A stretch of DNA of 33,558 nucleotides, from assembly GCA_022776305.1 (NCBI GenBank), contig JALFIB010000146.1, positions 1 through 33,558 on the forward strand, in the 5' to 3' direction. Both the position numbers and the translations under genes were made by a program. Below are positions 1 to 33,558 of the stretch, piece after piece; position 1 is the stretch's first letter; each line of letters begins with the position of its first letter. The notes beneath the pieces were generated by a model, which saw only the letters and a program-made list of their open reading frames with translations, had not been told where the DNA came from and searched no databases. Origin of the DNA: Lachnospiraceae bacterium (lineage in GTDB: Bacteria; Bacillota; Clostridia; Lachnospirales; Lachnospiraceae).

Positions 1-236
1 TGGCCGATTTTTCCAAAACCGCAAAGCCAGTTACTTAAAAACATCATGGCTGCTGTGGAGGTACCGCATTTTCCCGGCACCCCTTCCGTACTGTAACAAT
101 CCAGACAGTACAGCATGATATTGCGAATCACCTCCGGCGGGATCTCTTCCCGCTCAAATAAGTAACTGATCCCATTTAACATGGAGGTAGGTCCACAATC
201 ATATTCTGAAAGTTGATAGTGAAGTGGATTTTTCAT
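1..236 (-). CDS. C39-like cysteine peptidase family protein, N-terminal part (runs off the window)
   Basis: The frame opens at an ATG at 236 and stays open to the window edge, giving 78 residues. An AAGGAG site (249-254) lies 12 bases upstream and overlaps the end of the permease gene, so this is the last visible gene of the transporter operon and is probably translationally coupled. The N-terminus has the papain-like C39 signature: Gln8, then YDCG with the presumed nucleophile Cys14. It matches the complete protein at 6216-6830 at about 45 of the first 78 positions, so they are paralogues. The His and Asp expected in the missing half cannot be checked. C39-type folds cut leader peptides or act as transferases, and the substrate here is unknown. 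Placement behind peptide permeases suggests a role linked to peptide uptake, which is inference. Confidence 0.8.
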   Translation of the reverse strand, partial: MKNPLHYQLSEYDCGPTSMLNGISYLFEREEIPPEVIRNIMLYCLDCYSTEGVPGKCGTSTAAMMFLSNWLCGFGKIG

Positions 237-252
237 AACCTTTGCAATCTCC

Positions 253-1125
253 TTACCTGCTGTTTGGATCGAGTGCATCCCGCAGCGCATCACCGATGAA
301 GTTAATGGACATCACAAGAATAACGATCAAAAGTCCTGCGGGAATCCAGAGCCAGGGCTGTTTTGTGAGGACAGTCAGGGACTGGGCACCGTTCAGCATA
401 TTTCCAAGGCTCGCTGTGGGTGGCTGGACGCCAAGTCCAAGAAAGCTTAATGCAGCCTCATCCAGCATGGACAAGGCAAGGACCGATGTGGCATACACAA
501 GGATCGGAGCCACTGTATTGGGCAAAATCTCAGAAAAAAGTATATGGCGTACAGGCATGCCTGCAACGATATTGCTTTTGACAAAATTTGTTTCCCGGAG
601 GCTAAGGACATTTCCTCTCACCAAGCGGGCAATGCCGGGCCAATCCACGAAGCCCAGAATCAGAATAATGTTCCAAAGTCCCGGACGGAAAATGGCTGCC
701 GCCACAAGAACCAGTAAAATATAAGGAAAAGACATCACCATGTCTGTAAAGCGCATAATAACCATATCCGCGATCCCGCCAAAATAACCGGCGATCAATC
801 CAAGCACCACACCTACTACTGTGGAGATCACCGTTGCCAATACGCCTACCAGAAGTGAGATCCGCATGGCATACAGCAATCGGCTGAGCACATCACGGCC
901 GATCTGGTCTGTCCCAAGTAAGAACTCCCTACAAGGCGCCCCGCTGAAGGTTCCCACGATCGCATCTGGATCATAAGGCGCAATCCAAGGGGCAAGTAAA
1001 GCGGATCCCACTAAAACAACCAACACCACAAGGCTGGCCATAGCCAGATGATGACGGCGAAAACGGCGGAACACCGTCTGGAGATAACTTTCGTTTATAA
1101 TATCAGTCTTTTTATCCTTTGCCAT
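253..1125 (-). CDS. oppC: Peptide ABC transporter permease (DppC/OppC type)
   Basis: This is a 290-residue inner permease of the peptide/nickel ABC family (BPD_transp_1 fold). The N-terminus is cytoplasmic, followed by the DppC/OppC N-terminal helix and about five further membrane segments. Near the C-terminus lies the EAA-type loop that docks on the ATPases (around EILPNTVAPILVYA) and the family signature ALSFLGLGVQPP. The start at 1125 is chosen because GGAGGA (1132-1137) sits just upstream and the protein then opens MAKDKKTD, typical of the family; a longer frame reads into the preceding gene. The ribosome site overlaps the dppB stop, so translation is coupled. It should pair with the DppB-like protein to form the translocation channel. 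Substrate, whether oligopeptide, dipeptide or another, cannot be told from sequence. Confidence 0.95.
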   Translation of the reverse strand: MAKDKKTDIINESYLQTVFRRFRRHHLAMASLVVLVVLVGSALLAPWIAPYDPDAIVGTFSGAPCREFLLGTDQIGRDVLSRLLYAMRISLLVGVLATVISTVVGVVLGLIAGYFGGIADMVIMRFTDMVMSFPYILLVLVAAAIFRPGLWNIILILGFVDWPGIARLVRGNVLSLRETNFVKSNIVAGMPVRHILFSEILPNTVAPILVYATSVLALSMLDEAALSFLGLGVQPPTASLGNMLNGAQSLTVLTKQPWLWIPAGLLIVILVMSINFIGDALRDALDPNSR

Positions 1126-6170: not shown

Positions 6171-6215
6171 ACAATCATTTTAGGCACTTTTTACAAATGA
6201 AAGGTGAGTTATGGG

Positions 6216-6830
6216 ATGAAGAATGTATTAAATTACCAGACAAGCGAATACGATTGCGGACCGGTCTCTCTTCTTAACGGAATCCGCTATCTTTTTGACC
6301 GGGAAGAAATTTATCCGGATATTGTAAAGTTTATCATGCTCTATTGCATGGATACCTATAACGAAAATGGGGAGCTTTGTAAGCGCGGCACCTCGGCTGC
6401 AGCGATGAATTACATCACAAACTGGCTGAACCATTTTTCCGAGACCAGGCACTTCCCCATCCATTGTGATTACCTCACTGATGAAGATGTGGTCCTGTCA
6501 CCTGAAAGCCCGATCTGGAAAGCCCTCGAGGCAGGTGGAGCCGTAGTGGTACGGGTAAACCTCGAATGTTGGCATTACGTGCTACTAACCGGGATTTCCG
6601 ATGACCGTGTGCTGCTCTTTGATCCTTATTATGAGGAAGAAGACGATCCGGAATTTGACGAAGAATACAATACAGAGGAGATCCGTTTCCTCTATGATAC
6701 ACCAAAGCGAGCTAACCGCTGTGTATCCATCCAGCGTCTCAACCGGACGGATACCGGTTATTACCAGATGGGAGAGCCAAAAGGCAGGGAGGCAGTCATC
6801 ATGGTTAACACCGGCAAATCAACCATATAA
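6216..6830 (+). CDS. C39-like cysteine peptidase family protein
   Basis: A 204-residue protein with no signal peptide or membrane segment, so probably cytoplasmic. It has the papain-like C39 layout: Gln8 as oxyanion residue, Cys14 in EYDCGPVS, His in WHYVLLTG and Asp in LLFDPYY, all in family order. The start is ATG 6216 because AAAGGTGAG lies seven bases upstream and the first residues MKNVLNYQ match the paralogue at 1-236 (MKNPLHYQ). A GTG at 6204 lies within that ribosome site. There is no ABC or bacteriocin-exporter domain, so it is a stand-alone C39 fold. C39 relatives include leader peptidases and acyl or peptidyl transferases such as the BtrH type, so the reaction is unknown. It is divergent from the transporter whose far end carries the paralogue. 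Confidence 0.82.
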   Translation: MKNVLNYQTSEYDCGPVSLLNGIRYLFDREEIYPDIVKFIMLYCMDTYNENGELCKRGTSAAAMNYITNWLNHFSETRHFPIHCDYLTDEDVVLSPESPIWKALEAGGAVVVRVNLECWHYVLLTGISDDRVLLFDPYYEEEDDPEFDEEYNTEEIRFLYDTPKRANRCVSIQRLNRTDTGYYQMGEPKGREAVIMVNTGKSTI

Positions 6831-6931: not shown

Positions 6932-6955
6932 ACAAAAAAACCGAAACTCCTTGAT
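6932..6955. repeat. Left copy of a 24-bp direct repeat bounding a small island
   Basis: Identical to 8240-8263 at 23 of 24 bases; the core is CCGAAACTCCTTGAT preceded by an A-run. The right copy is the distal half of the tRNA operon terminator. This left copy has no matching second arm, so it is a stray duplicate, as expected of an attachment site or target duplication. Confidence 0.75.
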
Positions 6956-7096: not shown

Positions 7097-7118
7097 TATT
7101 GTGGGAATATCCACAATA
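7097..7118. promoter_or_regulatory. Operator 1: TATTGTG-N8-CACAATA at the secreted-protein promoter
   Basis: A perfect inverted repeat, extended to nine bases per arm (7096-7104 and 7111-7119). It lies over the -35 box and spacer of the promoter of the 7195 gene, where a bound repressor would block RNA polymerase. The same half-sites with the same eight-base spacing occur at 8186-8207 beside the promoter of the Cro/C1-type gene. Confidence 0.72.
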
Positions 7119-7127
7119 TAGTATAAT
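7099..7127 (+). promoter_or_regulatory. Promoter of the secreted-protein gene
   Basis: A weak -35 TTGTGG (7099-7104), a 17-base spacer and a perfect TATAAT (7122-7127). Operator 1 occupies the -35 and most of the spacer. The leader to the ATG at 7195 is about 60 bases. Confidence 0.65.
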
Positions 7128-7194
7128 CAAAATCATAAGAAAACAAAATGTGCGTAGCACAAATCAATTTATTATTAGAAAGGAGACTGACGTT

Positions 7195-7845
7195 ATGAAA
7201 ATGAAAAAATTATGTGCAATTGTATTGGCCACGGCGATGAGCTTTTCTATGTGTGCATTCGCAGAAGAAACAAATGATGCTTTGTTTACCTCAGAAGAAC
7301 AAGAAGCTATTGTTCAATCTGTAAAAGATTCTGTCACTGAAATGTATTTAGAAAAGTACGGAATAACACCTTCCGATTTCGAGTTATCCCAATATAATGT
7401 TGATGATATTGCAAATTATAATGACGGTAATTATTCCGGCGAAGATCCTTATAGTTGTACTTCTGTATGGCTAGAAGTTGATATGGCTATTACTTCTGGA
7501 GATACAAACTATTCCGTCCTCGAAGATTTGGATAAAGAAACAGCCGCAATGATTGGTATTTTTACGATAGAAAGTACACTCGACGAACAGCTGTCAACAA
7601 TGTTAGTAGGTTCTGATTTAGGATACTTGGACAACTCTGAAGAATCAAAAGATCTTCTGAAATCCGTTTATTTCGGTGTTGCTAGCTTTCTTAACAATCT
7701 AGACGAACAAAGACGTGCAGAAATCATTGTAAACTGCTATTATAATGCATATAAAGATAATCCTTTAACTGAAATCAACGGGAGAATGTATCCACAAGAA
7801 ACTATGTTCGATAAGATAATCACAGAAAATATTACTTTTGAATAA
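7195..7845 (+). CDS. Secreted protein of unknown function in a small island
   Basis: A 216-residue protein I do not recognise. It opens MKMKKLCAIVLATAMSFS, a clear Sec signal peptide, with probable cleavage after CAFA and before EE. The mature part is acidic and rich in Asp, Glu, Asn and Tyr. It has a single Cys (in YSCTSVW), no wall-anchor motif and no further membrane segment, so it should be released. The start at 7195 is set by GAAAGGAG nine bases upstream. The coding and flanking DNA is visibly richer in A and T than its neighbours, consistent with transfer. It converges with the Cro/C1-type gene at 7933, shares its operator and lies within the 24-bp direct repeats. A secreted effector, inhibitor or signal are all possible; nothing in the sequence decides. 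Confidence 0.8.
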   Translation: MKMKKLCAIVLATAMSFSMCAFAEETNDALFTSEEQEAIVQSVKDSVTEMYLEKYGITPSDFELSQYNVDDIANYNDGNYSGEDPYSCTSVWLEVDMAITSGDTNYSVLEDLDKETAAMIGIFTIESTLDEQLSTMLVGSDLGYLDNSEESKDLLKSVYFGVASFLNNLDEQRRAEIIVNCYYNAYKDNPLTEINGRMYPQETMFDKIITENITFE

Positions 7846-7898
7846 ATAATAGCCTACCAGAAATATCTAAAAAGAGACCAGCTGCATGATGTAATGAA

Positions 7899-7934
7899 AA
7901 AGGAGAAAAGCATATATAACTGCTTTTCTCCTTT
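7899..7934. terminator. Bidirectional terminator between the secreted-protein and regulator genes
   Basis: A 14-base-pair perfect stem (AAAGGAGAAAAGCA and its complement) with an eight-base loop. The right arm overlaps the stop codon of the regulator gene and is T-rich, so it can end transcripts from both sides. Confidence 0.75.
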
Positions 7935-8172
7935 AATCATCTTTAAACTTAACAATATCATTTGGTGTACAATCCAAAATCCGGCACAACTTTTCTACTG
8001 TTAATAATGTAATATTTTTTCTCTTCTTTAAGGAATCCAATGTTTTGTTATCTATTCCAGATTTTAAAAGCTGATACTGTGAAATATTTCGCTTATGCAT
8101 TGTATCCCACAGCGGGCTGTAATCAATAATTGTAACCACCACCTCTACTATAGTTACAATTATATTTCCCAT
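7933..8172 (-). CDS. Small Cro/C1-type (XRE, HTH_26-like) transcriptional regulator
   Basis: Up to 79 residues. The core from SPLWDTMHKRNISQYQLLK to CTPNDIVKFKDD is a complete five-helix Cro/C1 DNA-binding domain with nothing beyond it. The N-terminus is uncertain. ATG 8172 gives 15 extra hydrophobic residues and has a poor ribosome site. Relatives normally open with the equivalent of IDYSPLW, which here follows an AGAGGTGG site but has ATT (8130 or 8127) where ATG is expected; GTG 8142 or 8139 are other options. A TATAAT at 8159-8164 would start the transcript after ATG 8172, favouring the shorter forms. It probably binds the two matching operators and so represses itself and the secreted-protein gene, which is inference from site position. 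Confidence 0.82.
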   Translation of the reverse strand: MGNIIVTIVEVVVTIIDYSPLWDTMHKRNISQYQLLKSGIDNKTLDSLKKRKNITLLTVEKLCRILDCTPNDIVKFKDD

Positions 8173-8187
8173 TTTCCATTTTCAATA
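8159..8187 (-). promoter_or_regulatory. Probable promoter of the Cro/C1-type gene
   Basis: On the minus strand, TATTGA (8182-8187), a 17-base spacer and TATAAT (8159-8164). The -35 edge overlaps operator 2. Confidence 0.5.
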
Positions 8188-8207
8188 TTGTGTATATAGC
8201 CACAATA
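8186..8207. promoter_or_regulatory. Operator 2: TATTGTG-N8-CACAATA at the regulator promoter
   Basis: Same seven-base half-sites and eight-base spacing as operator 1 (7097-7118), here immediately upstream of and touching the -35 box of the regulator gene. Two matched sites flanking a two-gene unit that includes a DNA-binding protein point to autoregulation. Confidence 0.7.
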
Positions 8208-8239: not shown

Positions 8240-8263
8240 ACAAAAAACCCGAAACTCCTTGAT
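8240..8263. repeat. Right copy of the 24-bp direct repeat, within the tRNA terminator
   Basis: Pairs with 6932-6955, one mismatch in 24. Together they enclose 1.3 kb containing only the secreted-protein and regulator genes. No integrase or transposase gene is present between them. Confidence 0.75.
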
Positions 8264-29811: not shown

Positions 29812-29921
29812 ACCCAAGCTTTTATACCTATATCCCGAAACCCTTATTTCTTTGTTATGAAGCTCTCATACTTATATCTGTAAGTTTTTATCCTTATATC
29901 CTAAAGGCTTTACGCTTATAT
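29812..29921. repeat. Five 22-bp degenerate tandem repeats across the adhesin stop codon
   Basis: Units are 29900-29921, 29878-29899, 29856-29877, 29834-29855 (most diverged) and 29812-29833. The minus-strand consensus is ATATAAGNATAAAAGCTT. The first unit is coding (KYKRKAFR) and the second starts with the ATATAA that contains the stop codon. Confidence 0.78.
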
Positions 29922-32900
29922 TTTTTCTTTCTGTATCGCCTGTATGCTCCTGTAAAGATTCCCCCTGAAGCCAGAAGAAGGGCAGCAGCAACCTCTGGAT
30001 CCATGGGATCTCCCGTCTTGGGGCTATCTGTCCCGGCCTCTGAAGGCGCTTTACTGTTTTTAATTTCCTTTACCACTTCCGTTACCGGTGTATCGCCTCC
30101 TTCATAAGCAAAGACGATCTTATACTCTTTTTCTTCTTTTTCATATCCATACGGAGCTTTCTTTTCCTGCAAAATATAGGAAAATTCCTCTTGGAAAACG
30201 CCGTCTTCAAATAATCCTATTTCATACAGGTCGCTTTGGGCAATACCCTCTTTATCCGTTGTCAGCGTCTCCAGCAGCTCACCTGTACTGGTTTTTAATT
30301 CGAACACAGCATTTTCCAGAGGCTCCCCCGTATGGGAATCTGTTTTCTTGATGATCAGGATGCCGCTGGCATGATCATCCTTCATCTCTACCTTCTGTAT
30401 TTCACCTGTATTTTCCACAGTGAAGCTCACTGTCTCTGCATTCACATAACCTCTGGGGGCTGTTAGCTCCGTCAGGGTATATGTTTTTCCTCTCTCTAAA
30501 GCGCGTATCCTATGAGGTTCTTTTCCTGATATCCACTGCTCAATCAAATTCCCCTGTTCATCCCTCACTTCTAATTTGGCTCCCGGTATTTCTGCCCCAT
30601 CCGTCATGTCAGTTTTACTGATCTCTACCAGAGTACTCACATTAGAAAAATTCAATTTTTTCTCTACAACCGGTGTCTGGAAATCGCAGGTGCGCAGATC
30701 CGCCTCCTGCTCTCTTTTTTCTTCTTTTTCCACGTATCCAAAGGGAACCTTTTCTTCCCTCACTATGTATAATCCATGGGGAATATCTTCCATAAATTCT
30801 CCATTCCCCTCCGCATCTGTTTTACACGTTCCAATCTGTGTCCCTGCTTTTACAATGCATGTGCCATCCATATTTTTAATATCTTCTTTTGCGTATAATG
30901 CAAATTCCGCATTTTCCACCGGATCCCCTGTCTCATAATCTGTTTTATACAACTGTATCTTTAACTTCTGGCGTATGTTTTCTATCTCTATTTCCCCTGT
31001 CACTACAGGAGTATACTGATCCTGATAAGAAAGAGTAATCACCATTCCCTCTTCATCTTTCAGGAATCCGAAAGGGGCCACCTTTTCCCTGATCCGATAT
31101 GTGCCCAAAGGAAGGTCTTCTACAACAGCATGGCCATCCTCATCCGTGACTGCCTCTATCATAATGCCGTCTTCCGACAGTACCTCAAAGGCTACGCCGG
31201 AAAGCGGTGATTTACTATATATAAAACCGTCTTGAAACCCTATAGGTATATCACCTGTCTTTATTATTTCAATTTTCCCCGTCACTGCTTCATCAAAGCA
31301 TACCGCCTCATAAACCAGATCCCCCGTTTCTGTATCCACTTGGCAGAGAGAATTTTCATCTAATGTGACACGGATCATCTCTTCATTCAGGGTATAGCCC
31401 TCAGGGGCAGTCACTTCGATGATCCCATAATTTCCGGCAGGAAGCTCCTTTGGCAGCAATAGATATCCCTCCTCGTTTGTAAAATACGTAGTGTGTTTCT
31501 TGTTTTCGGGATAAGACGTAGTCTGCTCTACCGCTTCCCCTGTATCAAGATTCAAAACCTTAAACTCAGCGCCAGAGAGCAGAACATCTTTTCCGCTTTT
31601 TTTATCGCGTTTCGTAATCTTCAGCCGTACCTGAAAAGCATCATCCATTAGGATCTTCCAGGGCTGCGGTACGTCCGGGCTGTGTTTTGAGATAGTCACA
31701 AAGAAATCTTTTACCGGTTTATGGTTGGCAGGAACTGTCGTCTCCCTTACCAAATATATGCCGTAAGGAAGAGGGATGGTGCTAAGGCAGCCGTTTTCAT
31801 CTGTAAAAATCTCCCTTTCCCCTTCTTTTCCCAATGGTGCAGGATCTGATTGCTCCGTCTTATAACGTCCATCCAAGTCCACCTCCAGATCCGACAAGAG
31901 CCACGCAGAAAATCCGGCACCTCCAAGGCCTGCCGGTGTATCGCCACCTCCTGACGATCCTTTGATCAACTGAAAACCTTGCTTCATCACTTGTTCAGCC
32001 ACCTCAATCTCCCTCACCACGGTGTCACTGTCTTTTTCGTATGTAAGACTTATGTCATGGCAGATTTCATCCTTTACGTAGCCCTTAGGAGGTTCGATCT
32101 CTTTTAAGTAATATTGCCCTAAATATAAGTTTTCAGCCTTGGCCTTGCCCTGCGCATCTGTTTTAAGAAGTGATATCTGTGCGTCTTTTTCATACAGCAC
32201 GCCTGTCTTTCCGTCCGGATGCAGGATCGCAGTTTTTGCATAGAGTCCATATAGGGCACCTTCCAAAGAACCGTCACCTTGAGGGCTGCTTTGTCCAGTC
32301 TCCTTATCTTTTTTATGCAGCAAAATTGTCCCTTTTTGTATCGTGTCTGTCAAAGCCAGATGGATCTCCGATTGGTCTGAAACAGAAACCGGATGTACCG
32401 TATGGTCTGGAAGATATCCATTGGGCGGCACGATTTCCTGAATATAGTATTGCTCCTGCTCTCCCAGCTGGATCTCAACGGAACTTTTTCCTTTTGTATC
32501 TGTTGCAGGAAACTGTTTCACAAGCACAGTACATGATTGATCTGCATACAGCCCATAAACTGCTCCGGAAAGGGCAGCCTTCGTCTGGTTGTCACTTTTT
32601 TCCAGCATAATCTCACAATACTGGATAGGAACAGAGGCTGTCACCTGAGGCTGGTTTTCCATGAGAGACATCCCTTCTGAAAGGAAAGTAATATATTGCC
32701 ATCTAGAACCCCCATTTGCAGGCACGTACCACCATCCGCCGTACTCCTGCGTGACCACATTTACCGTGACAGTCAGCGGTATGTTATCTTTTGCCGCTTT
32801 ACGGTAAGCTGCATCCGTGGCTTTTAAATAAAAGGAAGAAAGGACATTTCCGCTCTGGTTTTCTTGAACAGTAATACCCTCCGGCGCATTGGAACTTAAG

Positions 32901-33558
32901 ACCCTGCTGACGCTTACGACCCGTTCCCCATGGTTGGAAGCGCACACATAATCTTTTGCTGTACGCCATGTGCCGTCACTTTGGCGGATCCATTCTCCTT
33001 GGGACACAGGCGTGATCTGATAGGTTACTTGCTTTGTCTGGTTTGTTGTACTGCTTATGGTACTGTCTGCGTACGCATCTTTCACCATCTTATTGATCAG
33101 GTTATAGACCTGCGTATCCTTAGATTTATTGACAGAGCCCATGATCGAGCTCTCTCTTCCCTGCTGGTTATTGATGATATGGATGGCAATCTGGGTAATG
33201 TAATAATCTTTTTTCCAATCGCCTGTAGAATAGGCAGAGTTGTAGGAAGTACTCCCCCGATAGCGGCAGCCGTTATAAAGGCAATACGTGATCTCTTTGG
33301 AAAAAGCCCCCGAATCCTGCGGAATATAGGGGACTCCGTCCGGGCCTTCCAACGGATTATAGACACAGTATGCCACCAGAGTCTTGCCCCCAGTCTCCAT
33401 TCCATGGTTTGTCACATACTTAAAGTAACAGGGGAAGTCAAGATATGCCAACACCAGTGAATCATCCCTATGGCCTTCCGCCGAAGCAACACTCCTACCT
33501 TTTCCCCCTCCTGCCCTTACCATCAAACAATCCTGCCAATACTCCTGAAAAAGCAAAG
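29894..33558 (-). CDS. Wall-anchored adhesin with thioester domain and eight SpaA/Cna-B modules (5' end outside window)
   Basis: At least 1220 residues, open to the window edge, so the start and signal peptide are missing. The N-terminal part has Cys64 in VAYCVYN and Gln122 in YITQIAIH, the pair that forms the internal Cys-Gln thioester in Gram-positive adhesins. After a beta-rich region with a WWYVPANGGSRW segment come eight SpaA/Cna-B modules. They start near EIMLEKSD, GTILLHKKD, GFQLIKGS, RLKITKRD, KIEIIKTGD, KIQLYKTD, LVEISKTD and GILIIKKTD; most end in an E.xxPxGY-type loop, and their Lys can form isopeptide bonds. The C-terminus is SPKTG (1178-1182), a hydrophobic helix and a basic tail, a sortase signal differing from LPXTG. 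It is probably a surface or pilus-tip adhesin that binds host targets covalently. Confidence 0.87.
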   Translation of the reverse strand, partial: LLFQEYWQDCLMVRAGGGKGRSVASAEGHRDDSLVLAYLDFPCYFKYVTNHGMETGGKTLVAYCVYNPLEGPDGVPYIPQDSGAFSKEITYCLYNGCRYRGSTSYNSAYSTGDWKKDYYITQIAIHIINNQQGRESSIMGSVNKSKDTQVYNLINKMVKDAYADSTISSTTNQTKQVTYQITPVSQGEWIRQSDGTWRTAKDYVCASNHGERVVSVSRVLSSNAPEGITVQENQSGNVLSSFYLKATDAAYRKAAKDNIPLTVTVNVVTQEYGGWWYVPANGGSRWQYITFLSEGMSLMENQPQVTASVPIQYCEIMLEKSDNQTKAALSGAVYGLYADQSCTVLVKQFPATDTKGKSSVEIQLGEQEQYYIQEIVPPNGYLPDHTVHPVSVSDQSEIHLALTDTIQKGTILLHKKDKETGQSSPQGDGSLEGALYGLYAKTAILHPDGKTGVLYEKDAQISLLKTDAQGKAKAENLYLGQYYLKEIEPPKGYVKDEICHDISLTYEKDSDTVVREIEVAEQVMKQGFQLIKGSSGGGDTPAGLGGAGFSAWLLSDLEVDLDGRYKTEQSDPAPLGKEGEREIFTDENGCLSTIPLPYGIYLVRETTVPANHKPVKDFFVTISKHSPDVPQPWKILMDDAFQVRLKITKRDKKSGKDVLLSGAEFKVLNLDTGEAVEQTTSYPENKKHTTYFTNEEGYLLLPKELPAGNYGIIEVTAPEGYTLNEEMIRVTLDENSLCQVDTETGDLVYEAVCFDEAVTGKIEIIKTGDIPIGFQDGFIYSKSPLSGVAFEVLSEDGIMIEAVTDEDGHAVVEDLPLGTYRIREKVAPFGFLKDEEGMVITLSYQDQYTPVVTGEIEIENIRQKLKIQLYKTDYETGDPVENAEFALYAKEDIKNMDGTCIVKAGTQIGTCKTDAEGNGEFMEDIPHGLYIVREEKVPFGYVEKEEKREQEADLRTCDFQTPVVEKKLNFSNVSTLVEISKTDMTDGAEIPGAKLEVRDEQGNLIEQWISGKEPHRIRALERGKTYTLTELTAPRGYVNAETVSFTVENTGEIQKVEMKDDHASGILIIKKTDSHTGEPLENAVFELKTSTGELLETLTTDKEGIAQSDLYEIGLFEDGVFQEEFSYILQEKKAPYGYEKEEKEYKIVFAYEGGDTPVTEVVKEIKNSKAPSEAGTDSPKTGDPMDPEVAAALLLASGGIFTGAYRRYRKKKYKRKAFRI

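Follow-up and report, generated by a model that had tools for sequence, protein, structure and literature searches.

Two copies of one predicted operator at an HTH_26 regulator gene and a convergent secreted-protein gene in a Lachnospiraceae bacterium

Results

A convergent two-gene unit

The window, i.e. the whole stretch of 33,558 nucleotides analysed here, contains a compact unit of a gene for a putative secreted protein and a convergent gene for a small regulator. Its features are as follows.

6932..6955, + strand: left copy of a 24-bp direct repeat that brackets the unit
7097..7118, unstranded: predicted operator 1, TATTGTG-GGAATATC-CACAATA, over the -35 box and spacer of the secreted-protein promoter
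7099..7127, + strand: predicted promoter of the secreted-protein gene, with -35 TTGTGG (7099-7104), a 17-nt spacer and -10 TATAAT (7122-7127)
7195..7845, + strand: orphan gene, whose 216-residue product has a Sec signal-peptide-like N-terminus
7899..7934, unstranded: perfect 14-bp inverted repeat with an 8-nt loop between the convergent genes
about 7933..8139, - strand: gene for a single-domain HTH_26 (Cro/C1) regulator, assigned with Pfam
8159..8185, - strand: predicted promoter of the regulator gene, with -35-like TTGAAA (8185-8180), a 15-nt spacer and -10 TATAAT (8164-8159)
8186..8207, unstranded: predicted operator 2, TATTGTG-TATATAGC-CACAATA, adjoining the regulator's -35-like box
8240..8263, + strand: right copy of the 24-bp direct repeat, within a terminator-like hairpin after tRNA-Met

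The initial annotation had described a convergent pair of genes with an identical spaced operator at both ends, over the -35 box and spacer of the secreted-protein gene and at the -35 edge of the regulator gene, and each of these points holds. The full 22-mers, TATTGTGGGAATATCCACAATA at 7097-7118 and TATTGTGTATATAGCCACAATA at 8186-8207, are both exact instances of TATTGTG-N8-CACAATA; the former overlaps TTGTGG and the spacer that follows it, the latter abuts TTGAAA, and the regulator's -10 box begins 21 nt beyond operator 2. The hairpin at 7899-7934 is a probable bidirectional terminator.

The start of the regulator gene is inexact: by eye it is a GTG near 8139/8142, while the longest open reading frame reaches 8172. 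Its product scores 48.9 bits with the Pfam model HTH_26 (PF13443), above the curated cut-off of 22. The sole match in the PDB is 3tyr/3tys, which we take to be VanUg; with the VanU model NF000090 the regulator obtains 18.5 bits (E 0.0017) against a cut-off of 150, which leaves it outside that family. Among the 46 other members of the genus, its sole near relative is in genome G035, at 74% identity, the next best being 50-53% identical.

The 216-residue protein would be cleaved after CAFA, as judged by eye, to give a mature form with a pI of 4.05. At E 1 it has no match in Pfam or PADLOC, and a search of the PDB returned none; four matches to NCBIfam models all fall far under their cut-offs, and one weak match in PHROGs covers residues 3-51. 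Its AlphaFold model has a mean pLDDT of 47. A homologue search of genome contigs returned four loci: L009 matches residues 1-21 only and L011 residues 1-70, while L010 (residues 1-70) and L012 (residues 1-141, 28%) were rejected as, by eye, solute-binding-type transport proteins. Within the genus, the single positive among 47 genomes is the protein's own. In the family, three of 397 genomes responded: its own, G255 and G277. The first of the other two was rejected as well (29% over 94 residues of a 553-residue frame); the second carries a decayed C-terminal fragment with an internal stop (39% over 73 residues), which we judge from its sequence to be the sole convincing relative. Three of 295 genomes of the order gave a match, the two others lying within residues 1-65 only, and none was found in phage and plasmid records.

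Neither an operator site nor an HTH_26 frame lies within the 3.2 kb examined at the G277 fragment. The idea of the initial annotation that regulator and operators might travel with this protein is therefore opposed by a sample of one: the sole relative is decayed and unpaired. Against a conserved pairing also stands the regulator's partner, which varies by locus (see below).

Genomic setting

Two conserved blocks enclose the unit. To its right are tRNA-Met and tRNA-Val, a stretch matched in 46 of the 47 genus genomes, after which a PAP2 gene comes next in 21 of 30 loci examined, window included. To its left, an opp-type gene is paired with a C39-like gene, in relatives too. In genomes G024 and G025, 17-18 kb of other genes separate the C39-like gene from tRNA-Met, and the unit is therefore a synteny break. 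The two copies of the bracketing 24-bp repeat are 96% identical, and the best comparable repeat in 24 other genus loci reaches 18 of 24. An insertion and the scar of a deletion or rearrangement fit this setting equally. A mobile element was considered, given the bracketing repeat and the neighbouring tRNA-Met, and set aside, there being no empty site found and no integrase in the unit; at locus L196, an integrase-like frame noted by eye beside tRNA-Met received no support from Pfam.

Two related genes for C39-peptidase-like proteins, at 3-293 (- strand) and 6204-6830 (+ strand), flank the opp-type transporter genes. The protein of the latter has Pfam matches under the cut-off. A relative is present in 14 of 47 genus genomes, the window's own included.

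The predicted operator is rare and exact

The unit's own assembly (2,918,254 bases in 303 contigs, 89% complete, 6% contamination) contains the exact pattern at the window's two sites only, and the same pattern read backwards, as a control, nowhere. Three exact sites occur in all in the 47 genomes of the genus, 45 of which have none; the 397 genomes of the family hold 20 exact sites in 14 genomes, against four for the backwards control. When up to three mismatches are allowed, the window has four matches and shuffles have 1.8. It is therefore the exactness alone that is notable. With a weight matrix built from 27 operators of other loci, the window left out, operators 1 and 2 score 30.4 and 28.6 bits and the next best window position 16.1, so that both stand at least 12 bits above every other position. 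Sites with at least 11 of the 14 half-site bases occur once per promoter in the window.

Regulator type and operator occur together

We classed regulators by the motif D/N-N/H/T-K/R-T-L in their recognition helix; the classes were set after looking at the window's own helix. A module, here named DNKTL-type, is defined by this helix motif, by TATTGTG-N8-CACAATA upstream and by a -10 box exactly 21 nt beyond the operator. The window shows all three.

A protein search of the family with the regulator gave 53 matches in 42 of the 397 genomes. Among same-helix regulators found in this way, 24 of 29 have the operator upstream of their own gene, at a threshold of at least 12 of 14 half-site bases and at most 260 bp upstream, with the window excluded and one near-identical locus dropped; two of the five without a site at this cut score 11. 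These loci are kin by descent, and their counts are not counts of independent events. In a slightly wider helix set, which takes in the window and loci fetched by the operator pattern, 26 of 35 have a site, where 0.05 are expected from shuffled upstream DNA (maximum 1 in 20 rounds). HTH_26 relatives with other helices have a site in two of 52 cases, with 0.25 expected.

The association was also followed from operator to regulator. Of the 18 exact family sites outside the window, nine are followed after 71-130 bp by the HTH coding region of a same-type regulator; a tenth site of this kind, from the genus set (member G035) and additional to the 18, is common to a regulator and a divergent AMP-ligase gene. 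Eight of the 18 have no same-type regulator in the examined locus, and seven of these fall inside mechanically called reading frames. The remaining one of the 18, at L029 in genome G317 (1501-1522), lies 175 bp before a gene of ECF-sigma type (1676 onward), whose product is 61% identical over 187 residues to the sigma factor of L022 in the same genome; at L022, the regulator gene (1625-1834) is followed by the ECF-type sigma gene (1915-2475). The lone operator of L029 is possibly a target in trans, or else a locus that lost its regulator.

One exact match, L019:1501-1522, stands between genes beside what looks by eye like a Crp/Fnr-family regulator gene. It is probably an unrelated Crp/Fnr-type site.

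Comparison of loci links this type of regulator to this operator and to the promoter geometry described below. Because type and operator co-occur across many genera, the window's regulator very probably binds both predicted operators. The initial annotation's claim that it acts at both sites gains from the same pairing, seen in the 24 of 29 loci.

A constant promoter geometry

We aligned 27 non-redundant operators, window included, each scoring at least 11 of 14. On the regulator side, a TATAAT box (at least five of six bases) begins at precisely 21 nt from the end of the operator in 24 of 27 loci (23 of 26 when the window is left out) and at any other offset in at most two. On the divergent strand, a TATAAT-like box (at least four of six) follows the operator's TTGTGN at 17 nt in 14 of 27 loci, compared with nine at the runner-up offset and about three at most others. 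Three operators lack the phased -10 and 13 the divergent one. In about half of the loci, two divergent promoters thus seem to share a single operator, which lies over the -35 and spacer of the partner's promoter and next to the weak -35 of the regulator's.

In the window, operator 1 has the partner form, TTGTGG-N17-TATAAT, without a -10 of regulator type, and operator 2 has the regulator form. At operator 2 the position of the divergent -10 reads TTCTGA, which agrees in one base of six and is unrecognisable; the divergent-partner trait of DNKTL-type modules, found in 14 of 27 loci and not strictly defining, is absent there, and the partner promoter is at 7097-7118. As read from these motifs, the window assigns to two separate sites what the usual site does for both promoters.

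Among the same-helix loci examined, the window alone has another strong copy (13 or 14 of 14) that is not at a regulator promoter; the loci are mostly about 3 kb long, such that more distant copies would escape. L024 and L234 have two operator copies each, but also two regulators each; at L233 and L235 the second copy is weaker and belongs to the same promoter, and L222 has a 12/14 match 1.1 kb away. It is the motif and the promoter layout that assign the second operator to a separate, convergent gene.

Among HTH_26 regulators with other helices, six of 56 (L052, L253, L004, L041, L064 and L260) have some other 22-bp palindrome with a -10 at 21 nt; shuffles give 0.3, and palindromes at other spacings reach up to four of 56. 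In the window's own genome, an HTH_26 paralogue has TATTGTCC-N6-GGACAATA at the corresponding position. These sites hint at a helix-to-operator code across the HTH_26 family, the support for a shared geometry being weaker in these relatives than within the type.

Partner genes at other loci

As far as they can be named from their sequences, the partner genes of the regulator vary from locus to locus.

L015: AMP ligase
L225: leucine-rich-repeat protein with a signal-peptide-like start and a sub-cut-off Big_2 match; the frame leaves the locus
L224: DNA/RNA non-specific endonuclease, with a membrane or signal segment by eye
L233: 385-residue protein with an N-terminal membrane segment by eye
L017:1558-1908, L222:1808-2158 and L234:1806-2114: family of about 110 residues with no Pfam match
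L024, L027 and L230: other small proteins
L022: ECF-type sigma factor, downstream of the regulator

The three genes of the family of about 110 residues are each divergent to the regulator and have the operator in common with it. The members at L222 and L234 are 32% and 25% identical, respectively, to the one at L017.

Proposed regulation and alternatives

We think it likely that the two genes form a local regulon, in which the HTH_26 regulator controls itself and the secreted-protein gene through the two operators. For this unit we infer binding, dimerisation, the sign of regulation and export as follows. The regulator, presumably dimeric, would bind the 22-bp palindrome at both sites. At the secreted-protein promoter it would cover the -35 box and spacer and shut out RNA polymerase, so that the exported protein would be made only once the regulator is lost, titrated or inactivated. 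On the promoter of its own gene it would sit beside the -35 box and set its own level, by repression in the manner of VanUG more probably than by activation. The regulator and its operator would then be a reusable cassette: in relatives one operator would govern the regulator promoter and, in about half of the loci, a divergent partner promoter, while in the window the partner would be a convergent orphan gene with an operator copy of its own.

The initial annotation had the regulator repress both genes. The part concerning the secreted-protein gene is upheld by an operator over its -35 and spacer, and we consider repression there to be most likely because this promoter has the form of the divergent partners, with the -35 inside the operator. 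The part concerning the regulator itself is less secure, as operator 2 adjoins the core promoter, in constant phase, and does not cover it. By analogy we lean modestly towards autorepression, since VanUG represses itself from a similar place, plus a second promoter; activation of the regulator's own promoter seems unlikely. VanUG, of the vanG operon of Enterococcus faecalis, binds its own promoter from -70 to -20 as well as the second one and represses both (PMC4405338).

A dual function would combine repression of the secreted-protein promoter with activation of the regulator's own and result in a self-sustaining off state; we regard it as an unlikely reading, although one with several points in its favour. 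Lambda CI represses PR and activates PRM, and the position of the window's operator is compatible with activation of that type at the regulator promoter. If the start is taken 7 nt past the -10, operator 2 spans about -55 to -34, with its centre at about -44.5, and it adjoins a weak -35-like TTNA, from which a short spacer of 15 nt leads to a near-perfect -10. The common phase of operator and -10 in 24 of 27 loci is what an activator of the lambda CI type would likewise show, and 14 of the 27 operators lie over a divergent promoter as well. However, the constant phase could follow simply from a -35 box adjoining the operator, and the window's TTGAAA-15-TATAAT scored best among the promoters compared and may need no help. 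Moreover, VanUG represses while protecting -70 to -20 of its own promoter, in overlap with the -35 (PMC4405338), and Aca regulators repress from inverted repeats inside the core promoter (PMC9410906). Extended to all loci, self-activation would imply an undescribed class of one-gene bistable switches, where a single-domain HTH_26 protein activates itself and represses an exchangeable accessory partner, the operator being split in the window. This we find distinctly unlikely. If it were true, clonal bacteria would keep accessory, often exported, products heritably on or off; the partners would include a surface protein, an exported nuclease and an orphan exported protein, and self-activation would proceed from a constant, class-II-like position.

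Two further readings differ from the local regulon as to what the operators mean. The palindrome could belong to a global regulator, its presence at both genes reflecting a wider regulon: its half-sites resemble Crp/Fnr-type sites (TGTGA/TCACA), and the L019 site lies beside a gene that looks by eye to be of that family. This is highly improbable when the whole assembly has two exact sites, both in the unit, when 45 of the 47 genus genomes have none and when the palindrome strongly co-occurs with one type of regulator. It is also quite improbable that unrelated neighbours were joined at a rearrangement junction and that operator 1 controls the secreted-protein gene incidentally. The secreted protein is indeed an orphan that has no conserved partner, the 24-bp repeat brackets the unit between conserved blocks where two relatives carry 17-18 kb of other genes, and partner genes vary elsewhere; but operator 1 falls precisely over the -35 and spacer of what is a good promoter for that gene, as in the divergent promoters of relatives, which makes an accident unlikely. 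Our preferred reading is still the local regulon, with repression of the secreted-protein gene.

Comparison with known systems

This local regulon resembles the VanUG system in that both have a small Cro/C1-like regulator, with operator-like sites, in the window, at its own -35 and at a separate target promoter. It differs in several respects (PMC4405338): VanUG is encoded by the first gene of the vanURS operon with a two-component system, none of which is in the window's unit; its own promoter has two adjacent 14-bp imperfect inverted repeats, whereas each promoter here has one 22-bp palindrome; and the target in the window is separate and convergent, unlike that of VanUG.

The arrangement in relatives is reminiscent of lambda CI at PRM and PR: the promoters are divergent, and the -35 of the target falls within a single operator that immediately precedes the regulator's core promoter. 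Lambda has three operators against usually one, however, and in the window the regulator has a single domain, the promoters have separate operators and the genes are convergent.

Aca proteins, most of which belong to other HTH families, are small HTH repressors; through inverted repeats in the promoter they regulate their own expression together with that of an adjacent accessory gene (PMC9410906). The window is similar in its predicted control by a small HTH protein of itself and of a neighbouring accessory gene through inverted repeats in promoters. However, aca genes are in the same operon as their target and the repeat is within one core promoter, while the window has two promoters and convergent genes. 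A regulator downstream in its target's operon, as in acr operons, is thus not what is found here: the genes converge on a hairpin. AcrIIA1 combines HTH_26 with HTH_3 in 149 residues (PMC9410906).

Altogether, the unit is of a known type, a small Cro/C1 autoregulator with a neighbouring target, and a neat, fairly ordinary case of local control. What seems new is the operator of this HTH_26 subgroup and its constant promoter geometry. Among the literature matches listed, in a scope mostly without subscription papers and without bioRxiv, there is no recognisable description of this operator, and the same scope gave no match on XRE regulators of Lachnospiraceae. Sequence comparison alone gives an operator and a promoter layout to a subgroup of tiny regulators (PF13443) about which little is published. 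Because the geometry is so constant, genome sequence is enough to pick out probable targets of such regulators, which opens the accessory partners, exported ones among them, to testing.

Elsewhere in the window, a very long repetitive frame occupies 29894-33556 (- strand) and ends in SPKTGD, LPXTG-like by eye; its product is perhaps a surface adhesin or pilin.
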